Below, piece by piece: positions 12,014 through 33,862 of a stretch of DNA of 64,000 nt. Position 1 is the stretch's first letter. Each line of letters starts with the position of its first letter. The stretch comes from Candidatus Nitrotoga sp. SPKER (GTDB taxonomy: Bacteria > Pseudomonadota > Gammaproteobacteria > Burkholderiales > Gallionellaceae): the NCBI GenBank assembly GCA_003402285.1, contig QFXG01000031.1:104713-168712 (forward strand). Reading direction: 5' to 3'. Under the pieces are notes generated by a model. It saw only the letters and a program-made list of their open reading frames with translations. It was not told where the DNA came from and ran no database searches. A program made the position numbers and the translations under genes.

Positions 12014-12014
12014 G

Positions 12015-13638: not shown

Positions 13639-14294
13639 TGGTGAACGTCACGTCGCGTATCACATTGGCCTGTGTGCTTGTTTTACTGGTGCAGCAAGCC
13701 AGCGCGGAAACGGTACTGGAAAGATCAAACCGCATTCTCCAGGAGATCAACGAGCGCGTTGTTAATCAATACCGCGCGCCCGCACCTAATGTAACCGCAT
13801 TGCCTCAACCTGCGACCACCGCAAACCCGGAAGACGTGGCAAAGCAATTCCACCAGCAGCCCTTGCAAACAAAGCTAGCAACACCAGAGATGATGATCTT
13901 TGTGTCGTTCTCGATGCCGCGAGAGAGTTTGCTGCGCATTGTTGAACAGTCGGAAAAAACCGGTGCGCGACTGATTTTCCGTGGTTTCAAAGGCGACAAA
14001 ATGACCGACATGTCAAAGCGCATCAGCGCGCTGCTAGGCAATCATCTTGTTGAAGCAGTCATCCATCCGCCCGCGTTTACTCAGTTCAAAGTGAATCAAG
14101 TGCCTGCACTGGTGCTCGCCCAACCCGACGCTGGCGACAAACTGGACAGCGGCTGCGCTCAACCGGATCGGTACGTGAAGGTTACGGGCGACGTAAGCCA
14201 GGACTACGCACTTGAATACATCGAGCGCACTTCACCGCAATGGGCGGCGACTGCACGCTTTTTTGGCGACAAAGACAAAATGGGTAATCAATGA
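13638..14294 (+). CDS. trbC: Type F conjugative transfer pilus assembly protein TrbC
   Basis: MMIFVSFSMPRESLLRIVEQSEKTGARLIFRGF and VNQVPALVLA motifs; directly after traU. Confidence 0.85.
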   Translation: MVNVTSRITLACVLVLLVQQASAETVLERSNRILQEINERVVNQYRAPAPNVTALPQPATTANPEDVAKQFHQQPLQTKLATPEMMIFVSFSMPRESLLRIVEQSEKTGARLIFRGFKGDKMTDMSKRISALLGNHLVEAVIHPPAFTQFKVNQVPALVLAQPDAGDKLDSGCAQPDRYVKVTGDVSQDYALEYIERTSPQWAATARFFGDKDKMGNQ

Positions 14295-15034
14295 GAGTAG
14301 GGTGCAGAAAGTTTGCCATGGTCTTGTATCTGAGTGGCGCAATCCCGCTGCTGTCACACGCCGTTACACCCGTGGAGCAGGCGTTTATCGATGGTCAAGC
14401 GACCGCGCAAAGTGCCACACCCAGCGCATCGACAAACATCACCAACGGCACGATAGCGACTACGGTCAACAGCTTCAATTCGAGCTACTACAATTACAGC
14501 AGTACCGCGCCAGAGGCTGGCTATTTCATGGGGGGAAGCGGAGACACGATTACACAAGGGGCGGGGAAAGTGACCGCCTGTCAGGCCGGCCCGGTCAACC
14601 CAAACGCCTTCCTCCAGCAAAACTGCGAAGCCATCAATTACATGGCGCGCAATCCGACAACGCGACCGCAGTTCACCCTCCCCCCGGGCGATCCGAATGT
14701 CACAAGATCGAGAATCATAGAAGCCAATCCCGGAACACTGGCAGCAACATCATTGGGGTATGCCAGTCCATCCGCAATCGGGGCTTTTACCGGATGCACG
14801 ACTCAAACCATCACCAAGCCGCCAACCTATACCACCGAAGTTTGTAACGAGTATCTGAGCACAACCAGTCACATGTGTATTGTCGGGCGCACGATTGTGG
14901 TGGATGCCGATGCCAACTATCAATGCAGCCAGACAGCAAAAAGCTACGAATCCCTGAGTTGTCGGCGAGGTGCCTCGACGGTAAGCACCTGGACGTCCAA
15001 CGAGTGCGTCGTCTTGCAACAGCGAGCACAGTAA
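14291..15034 (+). CDS. traN: TraN-like mating-pair stabilization protein, N-terminal portion
   Basis: Signal peptide, PVEQAFIDGQATAQSATPSAS and cysteine-bearing C-terminal part; position after trbC. Confidence 0.55.
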   Translation: MRVGCRKFAMVLYLSGAIPLLSHAVTPVEQAFIDGQATAQSATPSASTNITNGTIATTVNSFNSSYYNYSSTAPEAGYFMGGSGDTITQGAGKVTACQAGPVNPNAFLQQNCEAINYMARNPTTRPQFTLPPGDPNVTRSRIIEANPGTLAATSLGYASPSAIGAFTGCTTQTITKPPTYTTEVCNEYLSTTSHMCIVGRTIVVDADANYQCSQTAKSYESLSCRRGASTVSTWTSNECVVLQQRAQ

Positions 15035-16776
15035 TGAAGTTGCTAGCGTTAGTGGTTCGGTCATTAAACAGATTGAAATCCGTATTGAAATCCGTTCGTG
15101 GTGAGCTTGTCCAACCACCTGTCTCTTCGACAACCTCGGGGTGCACGGCACACTATTTATTGGTCGGCTCTGTAGTGATCATTCTCGTTATGGTGCTCTG
15201 CGGTCGGGCAATTGCCGCTGATTGTCGGCTGGCAAGTTCCACTTGCGTCGATAGCACGGCCAGCAAAACGATTGCCGGTGTCACGGTGACGCTGGCCGAG
15301 GTTGGCGGTTGCTGGGAGTATCAGGACACCTATACCTGCATCAAACCCAACGCTGTCGATTATTGTTCAGCCTTCAGGCAAATTTCAGGGTGTTGGCAAA
15401 TCAGCTCAACGTGTGCGGTTACCGACACCACGTTTGGCACTGGTTGCATGCAATGGGATAACACATGGCGGTGTGGCAACCCGGCGTTATCCACGCCGCC
15501 GAACACACTAAGAGTAGCTGATAGCTATACCATTGTGACCGACACCCTCAATAACACCCAGTGCCAACCTTACGCAAACAGCCCGACCTGCGCGATTGCG
15601 TCGCACATCTGCGTTGAGCCAGCGGCAACACGCATAATTAACGGATTGCCGGTGTACAAAGACTGCTGGAGCTGGCAAGACAACTATTCGTGTCTGGGGA
15701 CGCCGCAAACGGACTGCGGCGCATTGCAGTCTAGAGGATGCGCGCTCAACACATCGCAATGCCTGACAACAGCACTCAACAACCAGTGCAGCCTTACCGA
15801 AAAAACCTATCGCTGCCTAAGCGCATCCGGATCGTCTTCCACCGTTGCAGATTGCGGTGGAAACACATACTGCACAGGCGGCAACTGTTTCAATACCGGT
15901 CATGTGCCGGACACGGACTTTGCTCAAACAGCCGCCATGATGGAAGTCACGCGACAAGCCGGAAATTACATGGATGCAGCGAGCCTGCGTATATTTGGAG
16001 GGCAGGGATCCAGTTGTAAAAAATCACTGTTTGGATTGGTTAACTGCTGCAAGCCGAGTGGAGGTGGTGCGGCGCTAAACAATGCTTCCGTCATGGGATA
16101 TGCCGTGAATGCCGGTGGGCAGACCCTGAAATATGGCAGTAGTTACATGTACGACACGTTGTTTGACAACTTTCATATTGTGAGAGGATTGGACTCGGTG
16201 CTTGCATCAACCCCGGTCGGATCACTCGCCGGTGGGTCGTCGATGCCATTCAGTCCGGCCTTTTCGCTTTACGGCTTTACCGCAACGTGGGGAGCAATGC
16301 CAGGGGCACTGGGTTCTTTCGGTGGGATCAGCTTTGCATTCGACCCCACCTCACTCGCGATCCAAGTAGGACTAATGATTCTTCAGGAACTTCTATCGTG
16401 CGACCAACCAGAAAAAATGCTCGCCATGAAAAAAGGGCAGAACCTTTGTCGTTACACAGGGAGCCATTGTTCAATAAAGATACCAATTATTGGCACATGT
16501 TTGCAGACAACGGAAAGTTATTGCTGTTTCAATTCCCGTTTGGCAAGAATTATCAATACATCAGGCGGCGTGCAAATTGGTAAACCTGTCACGGACTGCA
16601 CAGGCTTCACCCCAACCGAGTTTTCCAGTCTGGATTTTTCGAGAATTGATCTTACCGAATTCACCAACGAGATAATGGCGAACGTAAGAATGCCAAGCGC
16701 AACCATTATCAATACCGATAGCGCCGCCACCATGCAGCGCAAGCTGAATAACTACTACACGCGAGGTCGTCAATGA
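15034..16776 (+). CDS. traN: TraN-like mating-pair stabilization protein, cysteine-rich C-terminal portion with its own TM segment
   Basis: Many cysteines in TraN-like repeats (CRLASSTCVDSTASKTIAGVTVTLAEVGGCWEYQDTYTC); starts at a TAATG overlap with the previous ORF. Confidence 0.65.
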   Translation: MKLLALVVRSLNRLKSVLKSVRGELVQPPVSSTTSGCTAHYLLVGSVVIILVMVLCGRAIAADCRLASSTCVDSTASKTIAGVTVTLAEVGGCWEYQDTYTCIKPNAVDYCSAFRQISGCWQISSTCAVTDTTFGTGCMQWDNTWRCGNPALSTPPNTLRVADSYTIVTDTLNNTQCQPYANSPTCAIASHICVEPAATRIINGLPVYKDCWSWQDNYSCLGTPQTDCGALQSRGCALNTSQCLTTALNNQCSLTEKTYRCLSASGSSSTVADCGGNTYCTGGNCFNTGHVPDTDFAQTAAMMEVTRQAGNYMDAASLRIFGGQGSSCKKSLFGLVNCCKPSGGGAALNNASVMGYAVNAGGQTLKYGSSYMYDTLFDNFHIVRGLDSVLASTPVGSLAGGSSMPFSPAFSLYGFTATWGAMPGALGSFGGISFAFDPTSLAIQVGLMILQELLSCDQPEKMLAMKKGQNLCRYTGSHCSIKIPIIGTCLQTTESYCCFNSRLARIINTSGGVQIGKPVTDCTGFTPTEFSSLDFSRIDLTEFTNEIMANVRMPSATIINTDSAATMQRKLNNYYTRGRQ

Positions 16777-17506: not shown

Positions 17507-17923
17507 ATGGGGAAACATTGGTGGCCGGCTCCGGAAGCAGGCGAAATTGTATGGTGTCACTTCCCGGAAAATAAGGGAATCAAGCCGGGGCCGAAGCCTC
17601 GGCCTGCTTTAATCATCAAGGTATTTGACGACCAAGCGCCCCATTTCATTGTATTGGTGGCCTATGGCACCAGTCAGAAAACTGACCAACTCCGCTCAGG
17701 AGAATTTCTTATCGCTGATCGCGAGACGGCGGCGTACCAACTCGCAGGCTTAAGCTACTCGACAAAATTCAGTTTCCATAACACAGTTGAACTGCCATAC
17801 AGCAGCGAATGGTTCAAGGTGCCACCCGCTGCACCAAACGGTCAAACACCAAAGCTCGGTGTGCTTCATCCAAGTTTGATGCAGCGTGTACGTGCCGCTT
17901 GGGAAGCGGCTCAAACAGGTTGA
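17507..17923 (+). CDS. PemK/MazF-like endoribonuclease toxin
   Basis: GEIVWCHFPENKGIKPGPKPRPALII, MazF-like N-terminal motif. Confidence 0.65.
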   Translation: MGKHWWPAPEAGEIVWCHFPENKGIKPGPKPRPALIIKVFDDQAPHFIVLVAYGTSQKTDQLRSGEFLIADRETAAYQLAGLSYSTKFSFHNTVELPYSSEWFKVPPAAPNGQTPKLGVLHPSLMQRVRAAWEAAQTG

Positions 17924-17975: not shown

Positions 17976-18161
17976 TCATTTGCAATCCATTCTCTCCCTA
18001 AGTTCCTTTCCGGCCTTGAAGTGCGGCACATACTTGGCTGGTACTAACACTTTGCTGCCCGTCTTTGGATTGCGCCCTGTGCGTAATGGCCTGTAATTGA
18101 GAGCGAAGCTGCCGAAGCCACGAATCTCTATACGGTCTCCCTTTGATAGCGCATTGGACAA
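17976..18161 (-). pseudogene. ihfB: 5'-truncated ihfB-like (IHF beta) fragment
   Basis: [52 protein letters not shown] matches the IHF-beta C-terminal half; the N-terminal ~30 aa are missing, with an in-frame TAA shortly upstream. Confidence 0.75.
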
Positions 18162-18400
18162 GGTATCAAGAATTGGTTAAAGATCTACCAGATAAATCTG
18201 ATGTGGCGCAAGATTGAAATAGTGACCGATACTTGGCTGCCATCGCAACAGCAGCAATGAAGGAACCAGCCAACTAGCTATAAGGTGGCCATATCGATAG
18301 TTACATTTCCTCGAACGTGTTTCTCGAACGAGATGTTCGCGCCATGTACTTTCCAAGAATCGATGTGCTCAGTCATTGGTTTGTGCTGCCTGCTGATAAA

Positions 18401-19522
18401 CTAAGCTGATTTATCTATTAAATTCACATCCGTCGCCCATTGTGATTTGTATTTTATATTTTGCTGTATCTGTTTCATGGCATCGGTTATCTGATCTCTA
18501 ACGGATCGAGTGTCAGATATGGTAATCGTCCATGTGGCCAACCAGAAATCTTCCTGTTGTGTTTTGAGCACTTTTTCAACGCATTTGGTGACATCTTCCT
18601 CATTTGACAGATCGATTTCTTCTTCAGAATAATTTACGATGAATTCAATCGCATCAACAACAAATTGGTTCATACACGTCAAACCGACCTTGCTCAGCAG
18701 TTTGCAATCTTTCGAAAAAGCATTCCCCCAGTTCTTTTTTATTGCATTCCAGAGGGTCAGAAAAAAGTCTAATAACATATCTTCATCCTCAATGGCTCTC
18801 ATGTTCTTGGATTGAATATATGCGATGGATGATTCGATTGAAGCGGGTATTATCCATCGATTTTCTTCTGCAATATCAGGCAGTGATAACAGCCCCTTGA
18901 ATGGACTTCCTTCAACCTCATTTGCCCAGCCAACATAGCTAACTTGTCGACTCAGGCTTAATCGTGCTGAACGCAGCCGAGTTTCAAGCTCCTGATCAGA
19001 GCAGTTTATGGTGAGGGCTCGAATATGATCTGGAGAAACTTTGGATACTTTATTGTTAATGACAATGAACTGGAATGCTTTTTCGTCAGTGCTGGCCCCG
19101 AGTATTGCAACCACAGGAACGACAGTGTTGGGATTGTATGCATTCATTCCATATAATCGATGCTGCCCATCAATGACCAAAGCTTCAGCAGATTTGGATT
19201 CATCGATCTCTAAGGTATGAAGCCCAGTCACAACATCGTTAGATATCTTGAAAACATCATTGGATAACGCAATAACAATGGCTGTCGGAATAATGTTCCT
19301 TTCATCCTCCACCATAAATTTGGTGATTCCTCTAACTCGGAAATCATTTCTAGCTCGCTGTATTCCATCTTTCCTTTCAGGAGAAAGACTAGGGATAGTT
19401 ACCCAATTCAACAACTCGCCAACGGGCGCGCTAAAAATACACGTTTCAAGCGATTGTTCGCTGTTGCGTTGTTTAAATTTGATACAACAATAATTTTTCA
19501 TTGGAGAGCCTAAATTGTGCAA
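18401..19522 (-). CDS. DGQHR-domain protein (DndB/DpdB-like), second copy in the island
   Basis: EALVIDGQHRLYGM motif, FQFIVINNKVSKV; immediately downstream of the HNH gene. Likely start near 19501. Confidence 0.8.
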   Translation of the reverse strand: MHNLGSPMKNYCCIKFKQRNSEQSLETCIFSAPVGELLNWVTIPSLSPERKDGIQRARNDFRVRGITKFMVEDERNIIPTAIVIALSNDVFKISNDVVTGLHTLEIDESKSAEALVIDGQHRLYGMNAYNPNTVVPVVAILGASTDEKAFQFIVINNKVSKVSPDHIRALTINCSDQELETRLRSARLSLSRQVSYVGWANEVEGSPFKGLLSLPDIAEENRWIIPASIESSIAYIQSKNMRAIEDEDMLLDFFLTLWNAIKKNWGNAFSKDCKLLSKVGLTCMNQFVVDAIEFIVNYSEEEIDLSNEEDVTKCVEKVLKTQQEDFWLATWTITISDTRSVRDQITDAMKQIQQNIKYKSQWATDVNLIDKSA

Positions 19523-20346
19523 TTAAAAAAATCTACGGCGTCATCTGGATGCTTGTGTTTTATTGACTTCCCCATAGCCCCAACTTTGAGCGCAGCTTCT
19601 TTTAGAGTAATCTGATCATCGCAGGCCCTGCGAAAAATATTCCGTCTATGCATGGCAATCTTCATTTTATACTGAATCCCTTTATTCAAATCCTCAGCGG
19701 TCGGTGATGGACTCAATACAAAAGAATGAACGTGTGCATCTTGCCATAGAAGGGTAGATCCCTTTGCGTGGTTACAAAGAGCGCATGCGGGCAACAGGTT
19801 CTCTGCAGTGCTGTCCCCTCCGAAATTTCTGGGCCAGATATGCTCGTACTGAACCTGGGTGGTTATATCTTCGGTTAACAGCTCAAGCTTACGGTCGCAA
19901 ATATAACAATAAATGGGTTTGTATTTGGGAGTCACTAATAGTTTTGTGCTCGGATTGACCTGCTTCCTGGTGCTTAATGCCGCTGAGAGAGATAGAGAAA
20001 TCAGTTTGTTGATAGCCTCTTTATTCTGACGATCAATGGCAATTTCCATTTGAGTTTGAAGATACCGTTTCATTTTTGGTTGTTGTTGTTCTTGATTGAG
20101 GGAGTAGTCCTCAATTAGATGAACGGCTTTTTTGATAAGACGCGCCATAAGATTAAAACAGTACACACCAATGTAGTATTCGGCCAAATCATCTTGGCGG
20201 TTGCCTATTTGTAAGTGACTTAATTGGTAAACTTGACTCTTCGCTTCAGATGGAATGAACTGTTTCGCTATGTGCTGAAATAAAAATTCACCTTGTGTTG
20301 AGGGGTGAAATCCGAACAAATTTTCGTTAACCTTTATCTTAGGCAT
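19510..20346 (-). CDS. HNH endonuclease, co-operonic with dptH
   Basis: CYICDRKLELL...QYEHIWPRNFGGDSTAENLLPACALCNHAKGS; start codon overlaps the 3' end of dptH by 8 nt. Confidence 0.85.
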   Translation of the reverse strand: MPKIKVNENLFGFHPSTQGEFLFQHIAKQFIPSEAKSQVYQLSHLQIGNRQDDLAEYYIGVYCFNLMARLIKKAVHLIEDYSLNQEQQQPKMKRYLQTQMEIAIDRQNKEAINKLISLSLSAALSTRKQVNPSTKLLVTPKYKPIYCYICDRKLELLTEDITTQVQYEHIWPRNFGGDSTAENLLPACALCNHAKGSTLLWQDAHVHSFVLSPSPTAEDLNKGIQYKMKIAMHRRNIFRRACDDQITLKEAALKVGAMGKSIKHKHPDDAVDFFNCTI

Positions 20347-23300
20347 GACGTTCTTGTAATTCCCAGAATGCCAAGTCGCGAATCTTCTGGAACTTCTTAT
20401 TGCCATCGATGAAGATGCTGTAGTGTTTTTCCAGTTTGCGGACGCTCTCCATCAAGGTTTCCTGCTCGGACTTATCGTCCGTGTTGAATATGGATTTGAT
20501 GTCGGCGTTCTTTATTTCCGATACCCGATGTATGACCCAGGTCAGAACGTAGCTGGCGTAATTATTCTCGCCCGTTTTGAAGTGGGTGATGTCTTGGGTG
20601 GAAAGAATGATGCCGACACCGTATTCGCGTCCCTCTTTGAGTATCTTGCGCAACGATGAAAAATCCTGCGACATGAAGTTGTCAGCTTCGTCCACGAATA
20701 TCATTTTAGTGATCTGGCGAAAATCTCCCTGGACGGCCGGTTTCCCTTTCTTCTGCATTTGGGAGTAGAATAGATCTAGGGTCAGGGCAACGACGAGGTT
20801 CTGGATCTGGGGCGAGTATCCCGCCAACTCGATGACGGTCACCCTCTCGATGAGATCGTATAGGCTTGACACCTTCGATGGATCGCTCTCGAAAATCTGG
20901 TAACTGGTCAGGCTATCCAATGCCGCATAAAGCGAATCTTCTTCCACCTTCTCTTGGTTTACGAATAGCTCCCAGATGTCTTGGATCGTCGGCGCGGGTC
21001 TGCTCCAGGTCGAGGCGTCGGACCTGCTGATTCCGGCAAGTTCGTAGGCGTCGAGAATCATCTTGCGAAGACGCAACTGCTGCTTTTGCCCAAGATTGAA
21101 TGCGCGTGCCATGGTTTCCGCGAATCCGGTGGCGGTATGAACGGGCAGCATCGGCATGTCACCGTACAGGCTCAGCGGGTTGTAGGGCAATCCGTGCAGT
21201 CGATATTTCTTGGCTCCGGTGGCGTCGATGAAGGCATCATCGACGTAGTCCGACTTGTAATCGAATATGAGCATTCCGATCGGTAGCCCGCCCACGTTGC
21301 AGGATTGGTTGCGAACGAGTTGGGTGATTACCGATTTGGTGAACTGGGTTTTCCCCGTTCCCATCGTCCCGACGATGCCCGTATTGGTGTTCATGAACTT
21401 CGCAGTATTAGTAGGCTCCCAGTAGAGTGGGGTATTTTTTAGCACTTCATGGCCGAACAGCACTTTTAACGGAGTGACGGGTGTCTTTTGCTCGACAACT
21501 ACGGGCGCGACCTTTTCGGTCGTGATGACCTCTGCTGGAGTTGCCGGTTCGGTCTCGGCTTCAGGGGTTTTCGCTGGGATTGATGCGGCATGGGCCGGGC
21601 GCAGACGATGCTGGTCTGGGACGTGGAGGGTTGCCACCAGGGAATCCAGCTCTGTTGTCTTTTTTACGTTGATCAGTGAATCGAGCAATCCGAAGGGCAA
21701 CTCCACCTGCAAAATATTGGCATCGGTCAAGTGGTAATGGGGTTCGAAACAGCTGTCATTCTCGACGTGCGCCACGACGAATCCGGAGGCGTAATCATCA
21801 AGGTCGGCCAACCCGTATTGCCCCCTCAACCACCATTCGCGACGGGACATCAACTCGTTCAGATTGCTGTCGGATAGAACCTGGTAGAGACGCAACTTGT
21901 CGACTTGCATCAAAACTTGGCGGACGAACAGTCCCCGATAGAGTCGCGCCGCCAGCGTTTGGGGGCCAAGAACCTCTTCGGTTAAATAGCGCTTTAACTC
22001 GGTAGCCTGTTTCCCCGCGTAGTTGAAATCTGGCCTGACGCCCGTTTTCACTTCCAGTGGGAGCAGGTAGAGTCTTTCTCCCTTGAAGCCTACGAATAGC
22101 ACATCATCCGAGATGGCACCCCTACGATATCCATGGACGTTGCGCGAGAATTCGCTATCGCTCATTTTGAGACCGACGTTGCCGGAGACCCTGATCATCT
22201 CCGCCACCGACAATGGGATCCAGGTGATGTCGGAATCGCGCAGGATGGAGCTGACGAACTTGTAGGCCCCGATGATGCCGTTCTTCTCCTTGCGCTCTTT
22301 GGGGTTGGCAGTGAGCATTTTGAGCAGCCACTCTCCGTTGAACGCATTGAACTCGGAGAGCAGGTTGTCGCTGCGGAGCAGGCTCTTGAAAAGACCCACC
22401 TGCTTGGTGACGGTGATGGCGTCGTAGCCGGCGGCGCTGGTGTATTGGTCCGAGTAGTGGATAAGAACTACATCCTGTTGGTTGGCGAAAAAGTCGAGCG
22501 TTACCTTGGGGTCGATGATGGTCGTCCACAGCGCACTGTCGTAGGAGCGCTCCATCAGCTCCTTGAACTCGGTTCCGACGGCAAGTCCTATGCCCATCCC
22601 TAGATTGTGTGCGTTGCTCTGCCTTGCGGGTTGGAACAGGGTGCCGATGAGACGGGCCAGTCTCAGTGGCTGGTGCTGGTCGATCTGAACGCCGCGCAAG
22701 CCGAAGGCGGTGAAGTAGGAATTTCCTTTGGTCTCCGATGCTTCGCCAGCGATCAGACCGTCACACAGAACGCCGCTCGCGGCTTCTTCGATATTTACGA
22801 GGCGGCAATCGACGGGGGCATTGTTGGAAAAGAAGGCCAGATGGGCGTAGGCGAGTGGCTCGCCCACCTTCGGTGTCGTGAACTTGCTGTAGGTGAGCCT
22901 GCTGCGGACCAAGTCGATCAGCATGTCCGCATCCGCGCGGATATCTCCGGAGTTTAGTCCCAGCCAGGATTTGAGCTCGTCGTAGGATGCGGTTTCGGCA
23001 AAGCGGTCGAAATCATTGTAGAGCAAGGTGTCGTCGTAGAAATTGACGTGGATGGCGCTGGCCCGTTCCTTGTTCAACTTGAAATGGTCGACCAGACCCA
23101 AAAATAACTCAGCCGCATCTGCCTGATGGATGGCATTAACGATCAATGCGCTACGGGCCGCCGTTTTGAATAACCTGGCATAGGCTTGGGTGAACTCGGC
23201 CAGTTTATCTTTGACCAGGCGTTGGACGTAGCTGTGGCTGGCCTGCTTCTGGGGCACCAGCTCCAGCCAGAACGGGTTCTCCCGGACGGGAACTACATGG

Positions 23301-25393
23301 GAAAAATCGGTCTCGGTGCTGTAGACGAACGGCAATAACCCAGATGCGACCAGCCGCTCGCGGGTGACTACGGGCAGCTCTCCGAACGACCCCGACAGGT
23401 CCACCTCGATGTGGCGAACCAGATCGAGGTGATAGGCTAAAACGAGTGGATGCAACGGCGTGATGCGTTCTTTGCCTTCGAGAAAATATATGCCGATACG
23501 CAAGAGGCGCTTGTGGTCCTGGCTCAATACCTCGTGAAGCGGTATGGCCTGCAACGCAGCTTCGTATGCGTCAACCACGTTCTGGACCAGTCCCCGGTAG
23601 CCGTTGCCCCAAGCCACGAGGCTTGGCAGCGTTTTATGTTGAGTGAGGTAGTTGAATAGGGCCTGGTAGGCGAAGTGCAGGGGTTCGCAGAATACTTGGA
23701 GGTCTGCCAGCGTGATGCTGGTATTGGTCCCGACGAACAGGAGCTGCTCATCCACCAGCCTAGCCTCGGCGATGAGCATTTGCTGGCGGGATCCGACGAC
23801 GCTGATTTCCGAGTTGTCGATGACGATTTTGTTCTTGGCCCTATTGAACTCGGCGTTGTATTCGTCGCTGAAAAGTTTGCCGAAGCGATCCTGATCGAAC
23901 AGAAGCGGAATGGTCACACCTTCTTCGGCTGCCGGTCCCTCTACATTGAGGCAGAGGCTGTGTTGGCCCGATTGCAAAGAGAACTGGATCATTTCGGTCT
24001 GGTTGGCCAGCTGTTCGAAATCTACGAACCCGAATTGCGTGCAATCGACGTGTTCATCTCCTTCATCGAGATGGATGGTCTCGCCTCCATCCGCCTTGAT
24101 CTGAAGATGGTTTTCTTCCATCAACAGGGTCAACCATTCGTGGCGGGGGTCGACCCGGAACCGATTTTTGATTTCCTCCAGATGGAAATGCCCTTGCTCT
24201 ACCATAAGGCAGCGGAACTTGTAGTCTTCGGCCCTGTTATCGCGTTTGAGTTCGACGCTGAAGAAGGTCACCTGCCCATCGAATGGCAGTGTAACGGTTG
24301 CCCGACAACGCTTCCCTCCCGCCCGGCTCACATCGATCTGTGCCGACTTTTCCAGTGCCTTGTTGTGTGAGATCTTGATCTGGCTAGCCTCAAGGTCGCT
24401 GCCGGTAAAGATGAATTTGCTGGCCACCTGTAGTTGACCCACGGGAACCTCTATCAGCAGGCTCAGTTCTTTTTGGCCCGCTTTGGTTTGGCTTTTCGCC
24501 CGTTGATAGAAAGTGCATCCAGCAACATCCACCTCGTCGAGTTCCATCTTCTGTTCTTGGTTGGCACTGGCCTCAACAAGATAGGTTTGATACTCCAGGG
24601 TGCTCCAATCATTGAGTTCGATGAAGTGTTCTCTGATGAATTTTGCGCTGTAATCCTTAAGGACGTTTTCTAATTGATCTGAAAAATGCTCAACGTTAAC
24701 TTCGATTTTCCGTCGGAGGGCGCGGTTCTCCTCCAGGCGTTTCCGGATGGGGGCTACTTGGCCCTTCATATTGAGGATGAATGGATCGTTGAATAAACCC
24801 AGTTCGCCAAATTCTGGTACCCCATCAGTCAGGGTTTTATATAGTGGGGCGAAGCCGAAGACTGTGGCATCTTCTTCAGTGATGATGGCCAACTGGTCTT
24901 TGAGAAGGCAGATCGATAGTTCACGGCCCTCGATCCGCTGGTCTATCAGGATTTCCAGCTCTTTTTCGAGACGCTTCGGATGCCAAATTGCTCCCGCAGT
25001 ACCCACGTCCTTAGCGCTGTTGATCAGGGTATCCAGTAGGCTGTTGTGGATGATGAGCAGGGCGGCTTGAGAGAACTGTTGGCCGCGCCCGGCAACTTTG
25101 TCGCGAAGGAACGAGATGTAGTTCTCGGTGAATCCTTTTTCACCATGCAGGACGGGGATGAGATAGACCTCGTTGCAAAGCACGTAGGGCAGATGAACGC
25201 CGCCGATATCGATGGTTTGTCCATTGGCCAACGCTAGAAATGCCTGATGTAGATGGAGCGCGTTGTTCGCATCGGGCGATTTGAATTGATAGCGGAACCC
25301 CGAGCGAATGTCCGGAGTTACCCATTCGATGAAACGTCCGGCTAGGTAGTTCTCATACGGTCTTGCGGACATATACGGCATCTCCACTGTCAC
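20339..25393 (-). CDS. dptH: DptH (DndH), large P-loop ATPase of phosphorothioation-dependent restriction
   Basis: 1684 aa, Walker A GTMGTGKTQFTKSVI, Walker B MIFVDEADNFMSQDF; in a dptF-G-H array beside dndBCDE. Confidence 0.9.
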   Translation of the reverse strand: MTVEMPYMSARPYENYLAGRFIEWVTPDIRSGFRYQFKSPDANNALHLHQAFLALANGQTIDIGGVHLPYVLCNEVYLIPVLHGEKGFTENYISFLRDKVAGRGQQFSQAALLIIHNSLLDTLINSAKDVGTAGAIWHPKRLEKELEILIDQRIEGRELSICLLKDQLAIITEEDATVFGFAPLYKTLTDGVPEFGELGLFNDPFILNMKGQVAPIRKRLEENRALRRKIEVNVEHFSDQLENVLKDYSAKFIREHFIELNDWSTLEYQTYLVEASANQEQKMELDEVDVAGCTFYQRAKSQTKAGQKELSLLIEVPVGQLQVASKFIFTGSDLEASQIKISHNKALEKSAQIDVSRAGGKRCRATVTLPFDGQVTFFSVELKRDNRAEDYKFRCLMVEQGHFHLEEIKNRFRVDPRHEWLTLLMEENHLQIKADGGETIHLDEGDEHVDCTQFGFVDFEQLANQTEMIQFSLQSGQHSLCLNVEGPAAEEGVTIPLLFDQDRFGKLFSDEYNAEFNRAKNKIVIDNSEISVVGSRQQMLIAEARLVDEQLLFVGTNTSITLADLQVFCEPLHFAYQALFNYLTQHKTLPSLVAWGNGYRGLVQNVVDAYEAALQAIPLHEVLSQDHKRLLRIGIYFLEGKERITPLHPLVLAYHLDLVRHIEVDLSGSFGELPVVTRERLVASGLLPFVYSTETDFSHVVPVRENPFWLELVPQKQASHSYVQRLVKDKLAEFTQAYARLFKTAARSALIVNAIHQADAAELFLGLVDHFKLNKERASAIHVNFYDDTLLYNDFDRFAETASYDELKSWLGLNSGDIRADADMLIDLVRSRLTYSKFTTPKVGEPLAYAHLAFFSNNAPVDCRLVNIEEAASGVLCDGLIAGEASETKGNSYFTAFGLRGVQIDQHQPLRLARLIGTLFQPARQSNAHNLGMGIGLAVGTEFKELMERSYDSALWTTIIDPKVTLDFFANQQDVVLIHYSDQYTSAAGYDAITVTKQVGLFKSLLRSDNLLSEFNAFNGEWLLKMLTANPKERKEKNGIIGAYKFVSSILRDSDITWIPLSVAEMIRVSGNVGLKMSDSEFSRNVHGYRRGAISDDVLFVGFKGERLYLLPLEVKTGVRPDFNYAGKQATELKRYLTEEVLGPQTLAARLYRGLFVRQVLMQVDKLRLYQVLSDSNLNELMSRREWWLRGQYGLADLDDYASGFVVAHVENDSCFEPHYHLTDANILQVELPFGLLDSLINVKKTTELDSLVATLHVPDQHRLRPAHAASIPAKTPEAETEPATPAEVITTEKVAPVVVEQKTPVTPLKVLFGHEVLKNTPLYWEPTNTAKFMNTNTGIVGTMGTGKTQFTKSVITQLVRNQSCNVGGLPIGMLIFDYKSDYVDDAFIDATGAKKYRLHGLPYNPLSLYGDMPMLPVHTATGFAETMARAFNLGQKQQLRLRKMILDAYELAGISRSDASTWSRPAPTIQDIWELFVNQEKVEEDSLYAALDSLTSYQIFESDPSKVSSLYDLIERVTVIELAGYSPQIQNLVVALTLDLFYSQMQKKGKPAVQGDFRQITKMIFVDEADNFMSQDFSSLRKILKEGREYGVGIILSTQDITHFKTGENNYASYVLTWVIHRVSEIKNADIKSIFNTDDKSEQETLMESVRKLEKHYSIFIDGNKKFQKIRDLAFWELQERHA

Positions 25394-26663
25394 TCATTCT
25401 TTCAACGTTGCCCATGCGTTCGTAGAAGCCGACCAGAACCTGCTGGGTCTGGCCGTCCAAATAGAACCCTCTCCGGCGGAACTCGTCCATTAGTTCGTGA
25501 AGGCGTAGCTTTTCGTTCATACCTATAGCAAGATTGGTGAGAAGCAGAAGCTGGTCCTGGTTGAGCACCAGCACGCGTCCAGCCCTTCCACGGGTTTGAA
25601 TGAAGTCTCCGCAGATCTGCTTTTCGAGTTCCTTGGTGTATTTTTCGTTGATCTCGCTACGCGTCGTCTTGTTCACCTTGAACTGCTCGATGGCGAGACC
25701 GATCAACTGGTCGAATGCGGCCTCGACGGTTCCCGCCCCTCCGCGGCTTGGAAGCTCCCTGACTTTTGCGAAAGCGTCGAGATACCCGTTCAAGACCTTT
25801 AGGATGCCGTCCTGGTCGGGATGGTCGGCGCAGTCCTTGAATACCTGCCACAGTGGGCGTTTGAGTTCTTTGCGCTGTATGGCTTCCAGGGCGGAAAGCA
25901 TAGGAAACAACCATTCGCTGGTGTTGGCGAACAGCCTGTAACCGCGATGAACGTTGATGCGTTCGGTGCTGGCCTTCTCCACATCCAGAATGAAATATAG
26001 CGGTTTGCTGACGGGCTCCCCATCCTTCCATGCGGCGATATTCAAAGCCATTTGGGAGCAATAGCTGAATGCGTAGAGCCTGAGGGTGTTGGTCAGTTCC
26101 TGGAGTAGATACTTGGGATGTGCGGCCAGGAAGTTGATGTCATCCTGGAATGCTTTGGCAATATACGGAAGATACGGCTTTTCGCTCGCGTCGTGACCGG
26201 TGTCGTCGGTCAGTTTTTGTTGCAGGACGTGGAGCATCTGCCGTTCGACGAAATTGAGCTGATCGTTCACGTCGTTGAGCGGGTCAGCATTCCCCGTCAA
26301 GCCGAAGAACAGGTCCCCCATGCGCACGTTCGATGCCCCCAATTCGGCCTTGCCCGAGCCCTTGCGTTGAGCCTTGAACAGCAGAAAAATGGGGGATATG
26401 TTGAATACGGCCTTCGTTGAAAAATACATGCGGTCCAGCACGTCCCAGAAGGATGGCTGGTCCAGTCTGACGAGGAACTGTGTGCGGCAGTCCTCGCGGA
26501 ATTGGTCGAAGTCGTATTGCTTGATCTGCTTTTTCATCGCATGACCCAGCACCATCCCGGTGATGATGTCCCATTCGAAATCGTTTCCCTTGTTGCGGAT
26601 GGGAAGGTAGCTGGTGAGCTTGTTTTTGTCGGACGGGGCGAGGTCTTCGGGGATTGGGAACAT
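25353..26663 (-). CDS. dptG: DptG (DndG) restriction component
   Basis: 436 aa between dptF and dptH, overlapping the start of dptH. Confidence 0.85.
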   Translation of the reverse strand: MFPIPEDLAPSDKNKLTSYLPIRNKGNDFEWDIITGMVLGHAMKKQIKQYDFDQFREDCRTQFLVRLDQPSFWDVLDRMYFSTKAVFNISPIFLLFKAQRKGSGKAELGASNVRMGDLFFGLTGNADPLNDVNDQLNFVERQMLHVLQQKLTDDTGHDASEKPYLPYIAKAFQDDINFLAAHPKYLLQELTNTLRLYAFSYCSQMALNIAAWKDGEPVSKPLYFILDVEKASTERINVHRGYRLFANTSEWLFPMLSALEAIQRKELKRPLWQVFKDCADHPDQDGILKVLNGYLDAFAKVRELPSRGGAGTVEAAFDQLIGLAIEQFKVNKTTRSEINEKYTKELEKQICGDFIQTRGRAGRVLVLNQDQLLLLTNLAIGMNEKLRLHELMDEFRRRGFYLDGQTQQVLVGFYERMGNVERMSDSGDAVYVRKTV

Positions 26664-26664
26664 T

Positions 26665-28281
26665 CTAGGTCACCCCGCTGATTTCTATCATGTCATCATC
26701 CTGCTGGGCGGTGTAGCAATGGCCGTTTTCGTAGAACCGCAGGATGTTGCTCTGCTTTGCCACTTCCCTGACTTGCTCGATAATCTCGTCCAGCAGCACG
26801 ACGGCATTCTTGTCATATTTGTTGGGCCGATAGCCCCGGTTGAGCTTGGAGATGAGTTCGAAAAGATTCAGGTTGATGGCGATGGGCTCCAGAACTTTAT
26901 CTGATACTTTCAAGCTGGCCCAGAAACGGGAGACCGATGGGCTGGTCTTTTTCTGGATGGATGCGAAATCGGCCTTCACGTCGATCGGTGCTGCCAGTTG
27001 GAGCGTTCCGGATTTTCCGAGAAAAACCTCCCCCTTCTGTAACCAAGGCGCATTACGGTTCGCGTAACGATAGATGGCACTGATGAGTTCGTTACCGTAG
27101 AAGGAGCGCAATGCCAGCTTGGTTTCGTTGCTGTCATCGTAATGCGCATGGAGCAGCCAGACCTTGGCATATTCGTTGAGCAAGGTTTCCTCGAAGTCAC
27201 CTTGAAACTGGTGGTGAAAATCGTTGCCGATGGAGAGGTCGCGCAGCAGATAGAACAGCCTGACCAGGGTCGCGGCACTTCCATCTGTCACTTCTTTAAC
27301 CTCGCCGTAGAGTCCCTTTTCTTGAAGGCTCTCAATGAAGGCGGCAAGTTCGGGGTTGGGAAGTCCCAGCTCGTAGCGCAACACGAACTGGTCGAGGGCC
27401 TGGGTATGCAAAAGGGCGGGGTCGAAATCTCCCATCCGCTGTATCAGCTCGTTGTCGCTTCCGCCGAACAGGTTGTCGGGCAGGTAGCCATTTCCGAGCA
27501 ATAACTGGTAGATGAAATCCAGCAGGGCCCGCGCGGTGATGAACTGGTCTTTTATCAGGCGGACTTTAAACAGGTTGGTGATGATGGCATCCTGCACGCA
27601 GTCTAACCCTAACAGCTTGTAGTTCGCCAGCAGTGCGGGATCGCGTCGTTCGCCATCATCCTTCAGGCTTAATGCGTAGAACGGATTTTCGTTGCTGGGT
27701 TCGGTGAGGCGTTGGATAAGCTGTTTGGCAAACTTGGAATGGGTGGAGGTGGAATCGGTGTTGAACTGGAATTTTGGGTAATTCTCGAAATCGAAGAAGT
27801 GGTAATTCGACTTTGCCGCCCCACCGCTTAGAAACTTATCGATAGCGTCCTTGATTGGTGAATGCCGCGCTGCCCCTTCTTTGCCATAATTGGCCAGCAT
27901 TCCGATATTGATGCCGACGACCAATGCTCTGCTATCGGTTTGGCTGGCATCGAAAAGCTGGTCCAGCGCATCAATGGCCGATTGGTAGGGGGAGAAGCTG
28001 TGGGTGCCGTCGAGGTGGAACCGGATGCTGCTTCGGTATTGTTCCTGGCATCTGGCGAGGATTTCCGATTTTCCGTCACCGCTGCTTCCGCACAGAAAAA
28101 TGATGTTCCCGCAACCGATGGTGGATAGCGCATTTCGGAAGTCGCGCTCGATGTCTTGTTCGATGTAGAGCCATTCTTTGGCATCATCCAATGGTTCGTG
28201 CGGTTTTTCGCTCAAGGTCTTTACGGAGAACGGCGACGCCTTGGAAAGGACGGACAGCGCATCTCGTAAGGTTAGATCCAT
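26665..28281 (-). CDS. dptF: DptF (DndF) ATPase
   Basis: IIFLCGSSGDGKSEILARC Walker A; start set at MDLTLRDALSVL because the upstream extension lies in the divergent promoter region. Confidence 0.88.
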   Translation of the reverse strand: MDLTLRDALSVLSKASPFSVKTLSEKPHEPLDDAKEWLYIEQDIERDFRNALSTIGCGNIIFLCGSSGDGKSEILARCQEQYRSSIRFHLDGTHSFSPYQSAIDALDQLFDASQTDSRALVVGINIGMLANYGKEGAARHSPIKDAIDKFLSGGAAKSNYHFFDFENYPKFQFNTDSTSTHSKFAKQLIQRLTEPSNENPFYALSLKDDGERRDPALLANYKLLGLDCVQDAIITNLFKVRLIKDQFITARALLDFIYQLLLGNGYLPDNLFGGSDNELIQRMGDFDPALLHTQALDQFVLRYELGLPNPELAAFIESLQEKGLYGEVKEVTDGSAATLVRLFYLLRDLSIGNDFHHQFQGDFEETLLNEYAKVWLLHAHYDDSNETKLALRSFYGNELISAIYRYANRNAPWLQKGEVFLGKSGTLQLAAPIDVKADFASIQKKTSPSVSRFWASLKVSDKVLEPIAINLNLFELISKLNRGYRPNKYDKNAVVLLDEIIEQVREVAKQSNILRFYENGHCYTAQQDDDMIEISGVT

Positions 28282-28550: not shown

Positions 28551-28616
28551 AAATGCGGTCGATTACGTAAAATTATCCGCAAAGTATGTATTAAAATGCG
28601 GTCTGTACGTTATAAT
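28551..28616 (+). promoter_or_regulatory. dndB promoter region with a TATAAT box and direct repeats AAATGCGGTC
   Basis: AAATGCGGTC at 28551-28560 and 28594-28603, both followed within a few nt by TACGT; TATAAT at 28611-28616; dndB ATG at 28645 preceded by AGGTAGG. Confidence 0.5.
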
Positions 28617-28644
28617 GAGGCTCGTCACACATACAGGTAGGATT

Positions 28645-29745
28645 ATGGATCCCGCATTTGAATACATTTTTCCTGCCATCCGTGGCATTCAGGCTGGACG
28701 AGAGTATTTCGTCTCGATGTGCCCTCTACGAGTCATCCCAAGGATGTTCTTGTTCGACGAAGAAGAACTCATGCCGGAGTTTAGAGCGCAACGCATTCTA
28801 AATCGAGCACGAGTGCCTGAAATTGCACAATACGTGTTGAACAATCAAACGAGCTACGTTTTTTCAGCCATAACAGCCTCACTAGACGGCGGGGTACGTT
28901 TTAAAGCATTGGGGGAAAATGGTGAATCAAATCGATTGGGTGCCTTACATGTAGATATGTCCGCACGCTTCATCATCAACGATGGCCAGCATCGACGTGC
29001 GGCAATCGAACAGGCTTTGAACAACGCACCCGAACTCGGCGACGAAACTATAGCCGTCGTATTTTTCATCGATCGGGGGCTTGAGCGCAGCCAGCAGATG
29101 TTTTCGGATCTGAATAGGCATGCGGTCCGCCCCAGCCGCTCTCTGGGTCTTCTGTATGACCATCGAAACGATCTTTCGAAGATTGCGAAGTTGGTGGCAT
29201 TGAAATCTACGGCCTTCAAGGACTTGGTGGAGATGGAGCGCAGCACCTTATCTGGGCGCTCGCGCAAACTTTTCACACTCAGTGCCATCTATACGGGGTG
29301 TTCGGTCTTGCTCGACTCGGCTGAATATTCGAACGTCGAACATGCATCCAAAGTTTGTATCGAATTTTGGGATGAGATCGCGAAACACATACCAGAATGG
29401 GGATTGGTGCGGTCTTCTAGGATGACAGCAGGAGAGATAAGGAGAGACTTCCTCCACTCTCATGCCATTGCTTTGCAAGTCTTTGGAATAGTGGGGCGTG
29501 ATCTGGTGCAAAGTGATCGCACAAACTGGAAGACCCGCTTGGCTGAAATCGGAAAAATCGACTGGTCCAGATCTAGCGCGGACGTATGGGAAGGGCGTGC
29601 CCTCATCGGCGGGCGGGTCTCGAAGTCGTCCAACAACGTCACCCTGACGGCAAACCTTATCAAGAACAGGCTAGGCCTCAAGCTTGGCCCCGAAGAGAAA
29701 CGGGTCGAGCAGATGTTCGAGCGTGGTCGCAACAATTCGAAATAG
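28645..29745 (+). CDS. dndB: DndB, DGQHR-domain regulator of DNA phosphorothioation
   Basis: FIINDGQHRRAAIEQALNN; first gene of dndBCDE. Confidence 0.92.
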   Translation: MDPAFEYIFPAIRGIQAGREYFVSMCPLRVIPRMFLFDEEELMPEFRAQRILNRARVPEIAQYVLNNQTSYVFSAITASLDGGVRFKALGENGESNRLGALHVDMSARFIINDGQHRRAAIEQALNNAPELGDETIAVVFFIDRGLERSQQMFSDLNRHAVRPSRSLGLLYDHRNDLSKIAKLVALKSTAFKDLVEMERSTLSGRSRKLFTLSAIYTGCSVLLDSAEYSNVEHASKVCIEFWDEIAKHIPEWGLVRSSRMTAGEIRRDFLHSHAIALQVFGIVGRDLVQSDRTNWKTRLAEIGKIDWSRSSADVWEGRALIGGRVSKSSNNVTLTANLIKNRLGLKLGPEEKRVEQMFERGRNNSK

Positions 29746-29748
29746 AGC

Positions 29749-31494
29749 ATGAGCAAAGAAAATATAACGATGGAAGACCGCATCGAGACGGCGATACGCA
29801 ACACCCAAGACCTTTACCTGAGCGATACGCTACCCTGGGTTGTAGGATACAGCGGCGGCAAGGATTCGACCGCAACCTTACAACTTATTTGGAAGGCGAT
29901 AGCGGCACTTCCGGTAGATAAACGTTCCAAGCCGATACACGTCATCAGCACCGATACGCTGGTGGAAAACCCCGTTGTGGCCATTTGGGTGACGAACTCG
30001 CTAATAGCTATGCAGAAGGCGGCGACGGAACAGGAAATGCCCATCATCCCCCATCGTTTGACGCCGAAACTGGAGGACAGGTTTTGGGTCAACTTGATAG
30101 GCAGGGGATATCCCGCCCCGCGTCCCTTGTTTCGCTGGTGCACCAGCCGGTTGAAGATCAACGCATCGAACACATTCATTACCGAACTTGCAAACAATCA
30201 GGGGGAGGCGATCCTGGTTCTTGGGTCCCGCAAGGCAGAAAGCCAGGCTCGAGACAAAGTGCTGGCCCGCTACGAGAACAGCACTCGCGAGCTCTTGAGC
30301 AGAAACGCCGACGCGAATCTGGACCGTGTGTGGGTCTACACACCAGTATCGACATGGACCAGCGATGATGTGTGGGAGTATCTCATCGAGAATGAGAACC
30401 CGTGGAATTACGACAATATAGAGTTGTTCCATATCTATCGGGGGGCCACGCCGGATGCTGAGTGCCCGCTGGTCGTCGATAAAAGCACGCCGAGTTGTGG
30501 TGATAGCAGGTTCGGTTGCTTCGTTTGCACGATGGTGTCGGAAGATAAATCCATGCAGGCCATGATCCAGAACGACGAGGATAGGCGCTGGATGATGCCT
30601 TTGCTGAGTTTCCGGAATGAATACCTGAAGACGGAAGGCGACAGGGGGCTGCGCGAGTTCACCAAAATGGGTGGAAGCCTGCAGCTCCAGTTTCTGGGCG
30701 TGAAAAGCGGCGGACGCACAGCACCCTCACGTCCTGGAAAAGTCGTCAGCGAGAAGGTGGTGCGGAGGTTGACTTCGACGAGTGATGGCGAAGAAGGCTA
30801 TCCGATGCCGAATCGTAAGGTGCTCGTTCTGGAAACGCGCGTGGTTGAGGGTGATGGGGAAACGCGCGAAACGACATATAAGATAGAAAAAATCGCGACG
30901 TTGGTGCACGGACCCTACACGCAGAATTATCGGGAGGCCATGCTCGAAGCGCTTCTGCGGGCCCAGGAAACCATCCGCAACAATTTGCCCGAATCCATCT
31001 CCGAGTTTTCCATCATTACACCGGAAGAGCTGGAGGAGATTCGCCGGATATGGGTGATCCAGAAGCGAGAGTTCGAAGACTCCGTTCCCGATATTTTCTT
31101 GAGAGCCACAGGCAAAGCTTATCCGATACCCGAACTGGATGAAACAACGCCTTTCAGGCCGGAAGATATTCGCCTGCTCCGCGATGTTTGCATGGACATG
31201 GCGATCGATTCACCTCAGAGCGGCCCGCTGGATTCCAAACAGCTGTTATTTACCGTTTTGCGTAATCAGTTGGGGATACAGCATAGCTACCGTGGGGCGA
31301 TCAGGCGAGTGGGGCTGCACGGAGAATTGGAGGATATGCTGGAGACACGGTCATTTGATAATGAGGATGAGGCGCTGGATTTTGCGCTTCAACGAAAAGC
31401 AGGGGGCAACGAGCTGATGTACGAGATGCGTGATGCCTCCGATGTCTTCGCTTACATACCGGAAGAACAACCAGCACAGGAACTGGAAGTATGA
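29749..31494 (+). CDS. dndC: DndC, PAPS-reductase-like phosphorothioation protein
   Basis: WVVGYSGGKDSTATLQLIW (SGGKDS PP-loop), CTSRLKI, CPLVVDKSTPSCGDSRFGCFVC. Confidence 0.95.
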   Translation: MSKENITMEDRIETAIRNTQDLYLSDTLPWVVGYSGGKDSTATLQLIWKAIAALPVDKRSKPIHVISTDTLVENPVVAIWVTNSLIAMQKAATEQEMPIIPHRLTPKLEDRFWVNLIGRGYPAPRPLFRWCTSRLKINASNTFITELANNQGEAILVLGSRKAESQARDKVLARYENSTRELLSRNADANLDRVWVYTPVSTWTSDDVWEYLIENENPWNYDNIELFHIYRGATPDAECPLVVDKSTPSCGDSRFGCFVCTMVSEDKSMQAMIQNDEDRRWMMPLLSFRNEYLKTEGDRGLREFTKMGGSLQLQFLGVKSGGRTAPSRPGKVVSEKVVRRLTSTSDGEEGYPMPNRKVLVLETRVVEGDGETRETTYKIEKIATLVHGPYTQNYREAMLEALLRAQETIRNNLPESISEFSIITPEELEEIRRIWVIQKREFEDSVPDIFLRATGKAYPIPELDETTPFRPEDIRLLRDVCMDMAIDSPQSGPLDSKQLLFTVLRNQLGIQHSYRGAIRRVGLHGELEDMLETRSFDNEDEALDFALQRKAGGNELMYEMRDASDVFAYIPEEQPAQELEV

Positions 31495-33473
31495 TTTTTG
31501 AGCAGGTGGTTTTGCATAATTTTGGAGTCTATCGGGGGGAGCATAGAATCGATCTGGACGTTGCTCCCGAAAAGCCGGTAGTGCTTATCGGTGCGTTGAA
31601 CGGGTCGGGTAAGACGACCTTTCTGGATGCGATGCAGCTGGCCCTATATGGAAAAAGTGCGCGTTGTTCGGGACGTGATCGGGTCGGATATCCTGAATAT
31701 CTTGAGTCCATGATTAATCGCGATGCGCCACCACACCAAGGGGCTGGTGTCGAGTTTACCTTCCGTGCCCGCGCCAATGGACAGGATGCGCGTATTCGCG
31801 TATCCAGAACCTGGCAAAAACGTGGGGAAAGCATCAAAGAAAACCTGGAGGTATTCCGCGACGGGGAACATGACGCCGTGGCGTCGGAGCGGTGGGTGGA
31901 GTTCGTCGAAGACTTCATGCCGTCGCAGATTGCGGACCTGTTTTTTTTCGATGGCGAGAAAATCGAGGCCCTTGCCGATCCGCTACGATCCGCCGCCTTG
32001 CTCAGAGTTGGAATCCATTCGCTGCTCGGGATAGACCTGGTGGAAAGCCTGTTGCGCAGCCTCCAGCAAGTCGAGCGCAAACGTATGACCGATACGGCAT
32101 CGGAAAGCGACAAATCCATGCTGCAAGCCATCGAGGCACAACGCAACGAGATCCAGCATGCGCACGAAGCGAATATGTTGAAGCGTGCGTCCCTTCAAAA
32201 CGATGTCGACGGCATCGAGAAGAAGGAGGCTTCGGTCGCGGAAGAGTTCAGGCGTTTGGGCGGCGATCTCCTCGTCCAACGTGACCACCTGGTTTCGGAA
32301 CAAGCGTATTACCGGAAGAAGAAGGCCGAAATCGAAGATGAGCTGCGGGTGCTGGCTGCGGGTGCCCTTCCGCTGATGATTCCAGCGAAGACGCTCGAAA
32401 CTGCCTATTCGAGGGCGTTGTCGGCCCGACGCAATGGCAACGCCGACTTGCTAAAAGTAGAGGCCGAGTCGAGGGATGCCTCCATCGAAAAATTCGTTGG
32501 CACTCTTGGGTTGAGGCGTGATGTTTTGACCAAGTTGCGTTCCCATCTCAAGGCAGATAGGGCGCAGCGTTATAGGTCAAATGTTCCTACTGGCGCAATT
32601 TCCGAGGAAATCCTGAACCAGTTCAGCCACGAGGCAACCCAAGCCATGGGCCGTGTTGCCGCGCATACATTGAAATCCCTTTCTGATGTCGATGAACATC
32701 TGTCAGTCGTTGAGCGGAATCTCGCTGCGGTTCCGGCAAGCGCCGAAGTGTCGCGCATCCAGCAAGAAATGGACGCCTGCAGAACGGAGCGAGCCAGAAT
32801 CGAAGCAACGATTGGTTTGTTGGATGAAGAAGTTGCGGCCCAAAGAGTCAAAATGGAGCGACTCCAAGCACAGGCGGAGCGAGAAGCCGAAAAGCTGGGG
32901 GAGCGACTGACGCGCGACGAGGTATCGAAGCGTATGATCGATCATTCATCCAGGGGTCGCAAGGTGCTAGCGACCTTTCGGGAACGGCTTCTGGCAAACA
33001 ATCTGCATCGGTTGGAATTCTCGATTTTGAATTACTTCCAACGGCTCATCAGAAAGAAGACTCTGGTCCATGGTATTGCCATAGATGCGGAGTCCTTTCA
33101 GATATCTGTCACGAATCAGGCGGGTCAACTCGTTCCCGCACACCGTCTGTCCGCTGGAGAGCGTCAGCTCTTGGCCGTGGCAACCCTTTGGGCATTGGCC
33201 CACGCGTCTGGACGATATCTGCCTGCGGTCATCGATACTCCACTGAGCAGGCTCGACAGCAAGCATCGCGGCACTCTTGTTCAAAACTATTTCCCGACCG
33301 CAAGCCATCAGGTCATCCTTCTTTCGACCGATGAAGAGGTGGTCGGAACGTATCTGGATCGCTTACATCCGTCCGTTGGACGGTATTACCTGATCGAGCA
33401 CGACGAATCGGCAAACACGTCGAAGTTCGTCAACGGTTACTTCTCTCCCTCACATTCCGAGATGCGCGTATGA
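31491..33473 (+). CDS. dndD: DndD, SMC/RecN-like ATPase
   Basis: NGSGKTTFLDAMQLALYG Walker A, coiled-coil centre, LSAGERQLLAVATLWALA signature. Confidence 0.95.
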   Translation: MIFEQVVLHNFGVYRGEHRIDLDVAPEKPVVLIGALNGSGKTTFLDAMQLALYGKSARCSGRDRVGYPEYLESMINRDAPPHQGAGVEFTFRARANGQDARIRVSRTWQKRGESIKENLEVFRDGEHDAVASERWVEFVEDFMPSQIADLFFFDGEKIEALADPLRSAALLRVGIHSLLGIDLVESLLRSLQQVERKRMTDTASESDKSMLQAIEAQRNEIQHAHEANMLKRASLQNDVDGIEKKEASVAEEFRRLGGDLLVQRDHLVSEQAYYRKKKAEIEDELRVLAAGALPLMIPAKTLETAYSRALSARRNGNADLLKVEAESRDASIEKFVGTLGLRRDVLTKLRSHLKADRAQRYRSNVPTGAISEEILNQFSHEATQAMGRVAAHTLKSLSDVDEHLSVVERNLAAVPASAEVSRIQQEMDACRTERARIEATIGLLDEEVAAQRVKMERLQAQAEREAEKLGERLTRDEVSKRMIDHSSRGRKVLATFRERLLANNLHRLEFSILNYFQRLIRKKTLVHGIAIDAESFQISVTNQAGQLVPAHRLSAGERQLLAVATLWALAHASGRYLPAVIDTPLSRLDSKHRGTLVQNYFPTASHQVILLSTDEEVVGTYLDRLHPSVGRYYLIEHDESANTSKFVNGYFSPSHSEMRV

Positions 33474-33862
33474 CTCCCATTGAAACCGTCAGGCTTTCCG
33501 AGAAGGCCAAGATACAGTTGATAACGATGAAACGTCGCACCGGCATAGCCAATTGGAATGTTCTGTGCCGCTGGGCATTCTGCCTTTCTATCAACCAGCC
33601 GACCCGTCCACCAGAAGAAGTAATCCCTTCGGATAGTTCTGTCGAAATGACGTGGAAAACCTTTACGGGGGGTGCCGAAGAGGTGTATTGGGGTTTGTTG
33701 TTGATTCGTGCTGAGGAAAATGCCGTTCCGCAAAAAAAAGAAGCGCTCGCTCATTACTTTCGATTGCATCTCCATAGAGGTATTTCCTACCTCACAGGAG
33801 CCAATGGTCCCACTGATCTTCCTCAGTTTATTCACTTGGCACTTACAAAAAAACGGGGCTAA
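33470..33862 (+). CDS. dndE: DndE, DNA-binding phosphorothioation protein
   Basis: 130 aa, TPIETVRLSEKAKIQLITMKRRTGIANWNVLCRWAFCLS; last gene of dndBCDE. Confidence 0.92.
   Translation: MTPIETVRLSEKAKIQLITMKRRTGIANWNVLCRWAFCLSINQPTRPPEEVIPSDSSVEMTWKTFTGGAEEVYWGLLLIRAEENAVPQKKEALAHYFRLHLHRGISYLTGANGPTDLPQFIHLALTKKRG

Follow-up and report, generated by a model that had tools for sequence, protein, structure and literature searches.

The phosphorothioate locus of Candidatus Nitrotoga sp. SPKER contains, in addition to the modification genes dndBCDE and the restriction genes dptFGH, two genes that directly follow dptH and encode an HNH nuclease and a second DGQHR-domain protein. This arrangement raises the question whether the two proteins serve the DptFGH restriction arm or constitute a cutting arm of their own. 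We analysed the window, i.e. the whole 64,000-nucleotide stretch of DNA that carries the locus, together with related loci elsewhere. The pair probably serves DNA-marking defences as an exchangeable cutting arm rather than extending its host operon.

The locus and its surroundings

A preliminary description of the window had placed dptF, dptG, dptH, the HNH gene and the DGQHR gene in this order on the - strand, and matches to DndF, DndG, DndH, HNH and DGQHR models confirm this layout (Table 1). The three dpt products match their models over approximately the full length, and all reading frames of the locus are intact, including those of dndB-C-D-E, which run divergently from the dpt genes on the + strand (28615-33862). 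The ATG of the HNH gene at 20346 and the end of the dptH stop codon at 20339 produce an overlap of 8 nt. The HNH stop codon occupies 19512-19510 and the most plausible start of the DGQHR gene is the ATG at 19501, 8 nt past this stop; a start at TTG 19522 would create a 13-nt overlap. A simple scan of the - strand from dptH to the end of the DGQHR gene found no terminator-like site. Translational coupling is plausible in the window and would be specific to this locus. A second Nitrotoga assembly (HW29) contains the identical locus (99.98-100% over 34 kb), which shows that it is not an assembly error, and a scan of genome contigs for the pair returned only this near-identical Nitrotoga locus.

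Genes for F-type conjugation (TraI_2, TraU, TraN) are located beside the defence locus, which is therefore probably carried as cargo by an F-type conjugative element. The DGQHR gene is closely followed by the remnant of an IHF/HU-type DNA-binding gene, comprising its C-terminal two thirds (Pfam E 1.6e-21), which is possibly an insertion scar. A PemK/MazF-like toxin gene is also found near the DGQHR gene, and a gene elsewhere in the window encodes a protein of 1673 aa that matches SNF2/ResIII helicase and N6-methylase models.

Table 1. Coordinates of the features discussed, in the window unless a locus record (L number) is given.
Feature	Position	Strand	Remarks
F-type conjugation genes	9693-16776	+	TraI_2, TraU, TraN
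PemK/MazF-like toxin gene	17507-17923	+	
IHF/HU-type gene remnant	17976-18170	-	
Second DGQHR-domain gene	18401..19501	-	366 aa; alternative start TTG 19522
HNH nuclease gene	19510..20346	-	278 aa; Pfam HNH_5 and HNH
dptH	20339..25393	-	ATPase (HerA/FtsK type) in the DptFGH restriction arm; its operon hosts the putatively captured pair
dptG	25353..26663	-	DndG model match
dptF	26665..28281	-	start from model alignment; open frame extends to 28533
dndB	28615..29745	+	first DGQHR protein, different clade from the second
dndC	29749..31494	+	phosphorothioate sulfurtransferase
dndD	31491..33473	+	model match
dndE	33470..33862	+	model match
Helicase/N6-methylase gene	38352-43373	+	
IS5 transposase, A. 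vitis	L022 7128-7961		
Fused GmrSD-type gene, G1166	L079 16633-18444		DUF262 and DUF1524
Two-gene cargo behind dptH, Aliivibrio and Pseudoalteromonas	L132 11660-13563; L135 17348-19272		
DGQHR and ~300-aa protein pairs	L025 5923-7793; L023 8016-9945; L068, L069, L072, L073, L076, L088		

Recurrence of the pair

Six further HNH and DGQHR pairs were found, three on plasmids of Pseudomonas, Agrobacterium and Bradyrhizobium and three in genomes of Burkholderiales. Each of the seven pairs is located inside a DNA-modification locus, of which four are dnd (phosphorothioate) and three dpd (7-deazaguanine) loci. The six, which with the window make up the total underlying the association, were retrieved by searching with the pair itself, without selection for dnd or dpd. 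On the P. aeruginosa plasmid pPae01, both genes (43% and 50% identity) adjoin dndEDCB, and no dptFGH is annotated near them. The Burkholderiales genome G1166 shows the same convergent arrangement of pair and dnd genes as pPae01, while in G1190 the DGQHR gene precedes the HNH gene, at a distance of about 6.5 kb from dndEDC. The pairs of G989, Bradyrhizobium 41S5 and A. vitis are found in dpd loci. In A. vitis, an IS5 insertion, with its transposase gene at the 5' end of the DGQHR gene, interrupts this gene and probably breaks it. In all six insertion-free pairs the two genes are within about 15 nt of each other, and this close spacing is preserved in both gene orders. Each of the three pair-bearing dpd loci already encodes DpdB, and dndB is present in the window, in pPae01 and in G1166. 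In G1166, the pair and dndEDCB have a fused GmrSD-type gene immediately upstream.

The same searches returned 47 other DGQHR loci (33 and 14), some of them on stretches cut short at contig ends, and none has an adjacent HNH gene of this type or a dnd or dpd gene in the stretch that was read. The Fisher value for this contrast, 1.4e-4, understates it, because its 10-kb limit excluded dndC-E of the window and because it counted a phage HNH gene 2.2 kb off and two loci obtained via dptG. DGQHR relatives occur in viral contigs and phages, none of them paired with an HNH gene. A DNA search of E. coli genomes for the pair, of low sensitivity at this divergence, returned no match. Within its family, G1166 is the only genome with the pair. 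The pair is rare and scattered.

A different recurrent arrangement, a DGQHR protein of about 330 aa with a downstream protein of ~300 aa, occurs in viral contigs, plasmids and one genome. Such pairs, from Providencia, Leptospira and viral loci, were considered as the same kind and rejected: the two partners that were scanned are without a Pfam match and the others lack an HNH motif.

Phylogeny and composition of the pair

A tree of 41 proteins groups the seven HNH-linked DGQHR proteins in a single clade (support 100/99) that is separate from DndB, DpdB, TIGR04172-like proteins and 20 others, and every member found has an HNH partner. The preliminary description is supported in that the two proteins are a real pair, distinct from dndB. 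In profile scores, the window DGQHR protein does not match TIGR03233 (DndB equivalog, cut-off 328) and stays below the cut-offs of NF041060 (DpdB equivalog; 65.7 bits versus 300) and TIGR04172 (DGQHR_dnd_1; 28.1 bits versus 450). The clade consists of two branches. The first, with the order HNH-DGQHR, contains the window, P. aeruginosa and G1166 (dnd) as well as A. vitis (dpd); the second, with the order DGQHR-HNH, contains G1190 (dnd) as well as G989 and Bradyrhizobium (dpd). Several terminal branches are long, and it is unsure how the members of the second branch join. Since both branches span both marks, partners have been exchanged.

The composition of the pair differs sharply from that of dptFGH: GC contents are 0.415 for the HNH and 0.404 for the DGQHR gene versus 0.53-0.54 for dptFGH, and GC3 values are 0.42 and 0.40 versus 0.68-0.71. 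In P. aeruginosa and G1166, GC of the pair is also below that of dndB and dndD. Because of its low GC relative to dptFGH, the pair looks like a captured cassette, and capture at the end of the dpt operon would be the simplest account of the present arrangement.

Motifs and domains

The window DGQHR protein scores 83.9 bits against TIGR03187 (DGQHR; cut-off 58.85) and contains the motifs QR (Q48R49), DGQHR (111-115) and FxxxN (F145-N149). The three motifs are conserved among the DGQHR proteins of the pairs, QR being present in all with a readable N-terminus; in Bradyrhizobium it appears after extending the gene start. The HNH protein of the window exceeds the curated Pfam cut-offs for HNH_5 and HNH (PF01844/PF14279) and has intact H-N-N residues and zinc cysteines. 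Across seven homologues C147, C150, H169, N183, C188, C191 and N192 are invariant and position 168 is E or D. Compared with DndI, SspE and GmrSD, the pair thus presents QR, DGQ(H/Q)R and FxxxN together with an E/D-H-N-N nuclease set. According to PMC4619093, the three motifs are common to DGQHR domains and to GmrS, a ParB/Srx-fold NTPase.

Family-level comparisons set the pair apart from these enzymes. The window DGQHR protein matches PF14072 and lacks a DUF262 (PF03235) N-terminal domain, and the nucleases of the pairs match other HNH families only, not DUF1524 (PF07510). No SBD/SRA-type mark-binding Pfam domain was found in the window HNH protein. The P. aeruginosa DGQHR homologue shows a weak, sub-threshold match to GmrSD_N (E 0.0058), and no match to the fused GmrSD protein emerged from a profile comparison. 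In a PDB profile search, the DGQHR alignment returned no ParB, GmrS or DndB structure and only peptidyl-prolyl isomerase noise; the HNH alignment returned generic HNH domains (Cas9-type and similar, McrA), which are uninformative on the partner. Single-sequence structure predictions of both window proteins were poor (pLDDT 33-36) and were excluded from fold searches.

Relation to the DptFGH arm

The preliminary description had suggested that both proteins could serve DptFGH, HNH as a nuclease effector and the DGQHR protein as a recogniser of modified DNA or a regulator of the restriction arm, separately from dndB. A nuclease with a recogniser of modified DNA is still the best reading of the pair, but its link to DptFGH was not borne out. 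None of the five other DptFGH loci that were read downstream of dptH carries the pair, and a reading specific to DptFGH therefore fails. Conversely, whole-genome or whole-record searches of the six other pair-bearing genomes or records, which comprised a plasmid record for P. aeruginosa and a draft for G1190 (87% complete, 6% contamination), gave only short ATPase-level matches and no DptH. What recurs with the pair are the modification genes and not DptFGH.

The position behind dptH is a variable slot with differing cargo. In E. coli YZMc3-1, a HARE-HTH/Mrr endonuclease gene overlaps dptH, while the cargo of Aliivibrio and Pseudoalteromonas is a TIGR04172-like DGQHR protein together with a small protein that apparently spans the membrane, with no HNH gene; both loci were reached through dptG and are outside the 47 controls. 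In Salmonella Cerro 87, dndI is cotranscribed with dndFGH (PMC11662687).

Proposed function of the pair and alternative explanations

The reading that we favour, with somewhat better than even confidence, is that HNH and DGQHR make up a portable restriction cassette of two genes, which combines with dnd or dpd marking as a split counterpart of GmrSD, SspE and DndI. From the motifs shared with GmrS, the HNH residue set, the precedent of SspE and DndI and the GmrSD-type gene next to the pair in G1166, we infer a split sensor-nuclease, i.e. a ParB fold, NTPase activity, sensing, cleavage and a physical complex of the two proteins. The DGQHR protein, as a putative branch of the ParB/Srx-fold NTPases, would contact DNA, sense the host mark and change its conformation upon NTP binding or hydrolysis. 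In this way it would keep the HNH partner off marked self-DNA, while the partner would nick or cut unmarked invading DNA. The Nitrotoga pair would then provide a second restriction arm beside DptFGH, both depending on dndBCDE. We see an even chance that the sensor of this module re-pairs with chemically unrelated marks, a backbone sulfur and a 7-deazaguanine base, in which case the clade either evolves to new marks or reads a shared feature.

Sensing is not the sole option for the DGQHR protein, because DpdB helps modification and DndB represses. A nuclease with its cognate inhibitor is a serious, albeit rather unlikely, rival: the DGQHR protein would hold HNH inactive or repress its gene, and infection or failure of modification would free a suicidal back-up nuclease. 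DndB has been reported as an ATP-dependent repressor of dnd, standalone nucleases in dnd neighbourhoods have been proposed as back-up suicide effectors (PMC10853773), and the close spacing in both gene orders would suit such a pair. Nevertheless, the DGQHR clade of the pair is separate from DndB, the constant location in dnd or dpd loci exceeds the need of a generic suicide pair, and there is no evidence for a separate promoter.

That the DGQHR protein is, like DpdB, part of the modification arm and alters target choice, with HNH as an unrelated rider, appears improbable. DpdB is indeed an ATPase of the dpd modification step that helps to insert the base (PMC12839542), but the loci concerned already possess DpdB or, in the window, pPae01 and G1166, dndB, and the consistent pairing with HNH argues against a rider. 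We are equally doubtful that the two proteins are accessory DptFGH subunits, HNH adding a nuclease to the complex and DGQHR regulating it. The 8-nt overlap with dptH and the scan for terminator-like sites fit one transcript; the pair is, however, absent past dptH in the five other loci, where E. coli (HARE-Mrr), Aliivibrio and Pseudoalteromonas carry other cargo, its composition is unlike that of dptFGH, and the six other pair-bearing genomes or records yielded no DptH.

Many dnd loci are without DndFGH (PMC10853773), and the proposed cassette offers a concrete candidate for restriction in such loci. If true, it would represent a naturally split SspE/DndI switch, whose two components, the sensor and the nuclease, would be open to separate purification and mutation. 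Furthermore, one clade beside both phosphorothioate and 7-deazaguanine systems would give access to how a restriction arm changes the mark that it reads.

Comparison with known systems

No description of the pair was found in the accessible parts of the open literature mentioning DGQHR, supplementary tables aside, where an unnamed listing is possible. PMC10853773 gives a general listing of HNH nucleases from dnd neighbourhoods, and SBD-SRA-HNH enzymes of the ScoMcrA type are nucleases of this kind (PMC10853773, PMC7461809), but they have mark-binding domains of their own and cleave DNA that is marked. DndB, DpdB and DGQHR_dnd_1 (TIGR04172) are likewise DGQHR proteins of dnd or dpd loci, yet they belong to separate clades without this HNH partner. 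For GmrSD, PMC4619093 describes a GmrS that shares QR, DGQ(H/Q)R and FxxxN, an HNH nuclease GmrD and the existence of a two-gene form. As a type IV restriction system, however, GmrSD targets modified phage DNA, uses another nuclease family and has no tie to host marking.

SspE of the SspABCD system couples a phosphorothioate-sensing ParB-like NTPase to an HNH nickase (PMC9646914, PMC13251355). It differs from the pair in being fused, in its protein families and in its partners, which are Ssp and not Dnd modification genes. A mode in which the mark arms the enzyme, as in SspE, has been contrasted with a DndI-like mode in which the mark releases it (PMC11662687). DndI of Salmonella Cerro 87 is the closest parallel in logic to the pair, as it likewise combines a ParB-like NTPase part with an HNH part. 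Its gene sits with dndFGH, defends with dndBCDE alone and also occurs without dndFGH (PMC11662687). Nonetheless, DndI is a single fused protein of DUF262 and DUF1524, whereas the pair consists of a DGQHR/PF14072 protein and an HNH_5-type nuclease.
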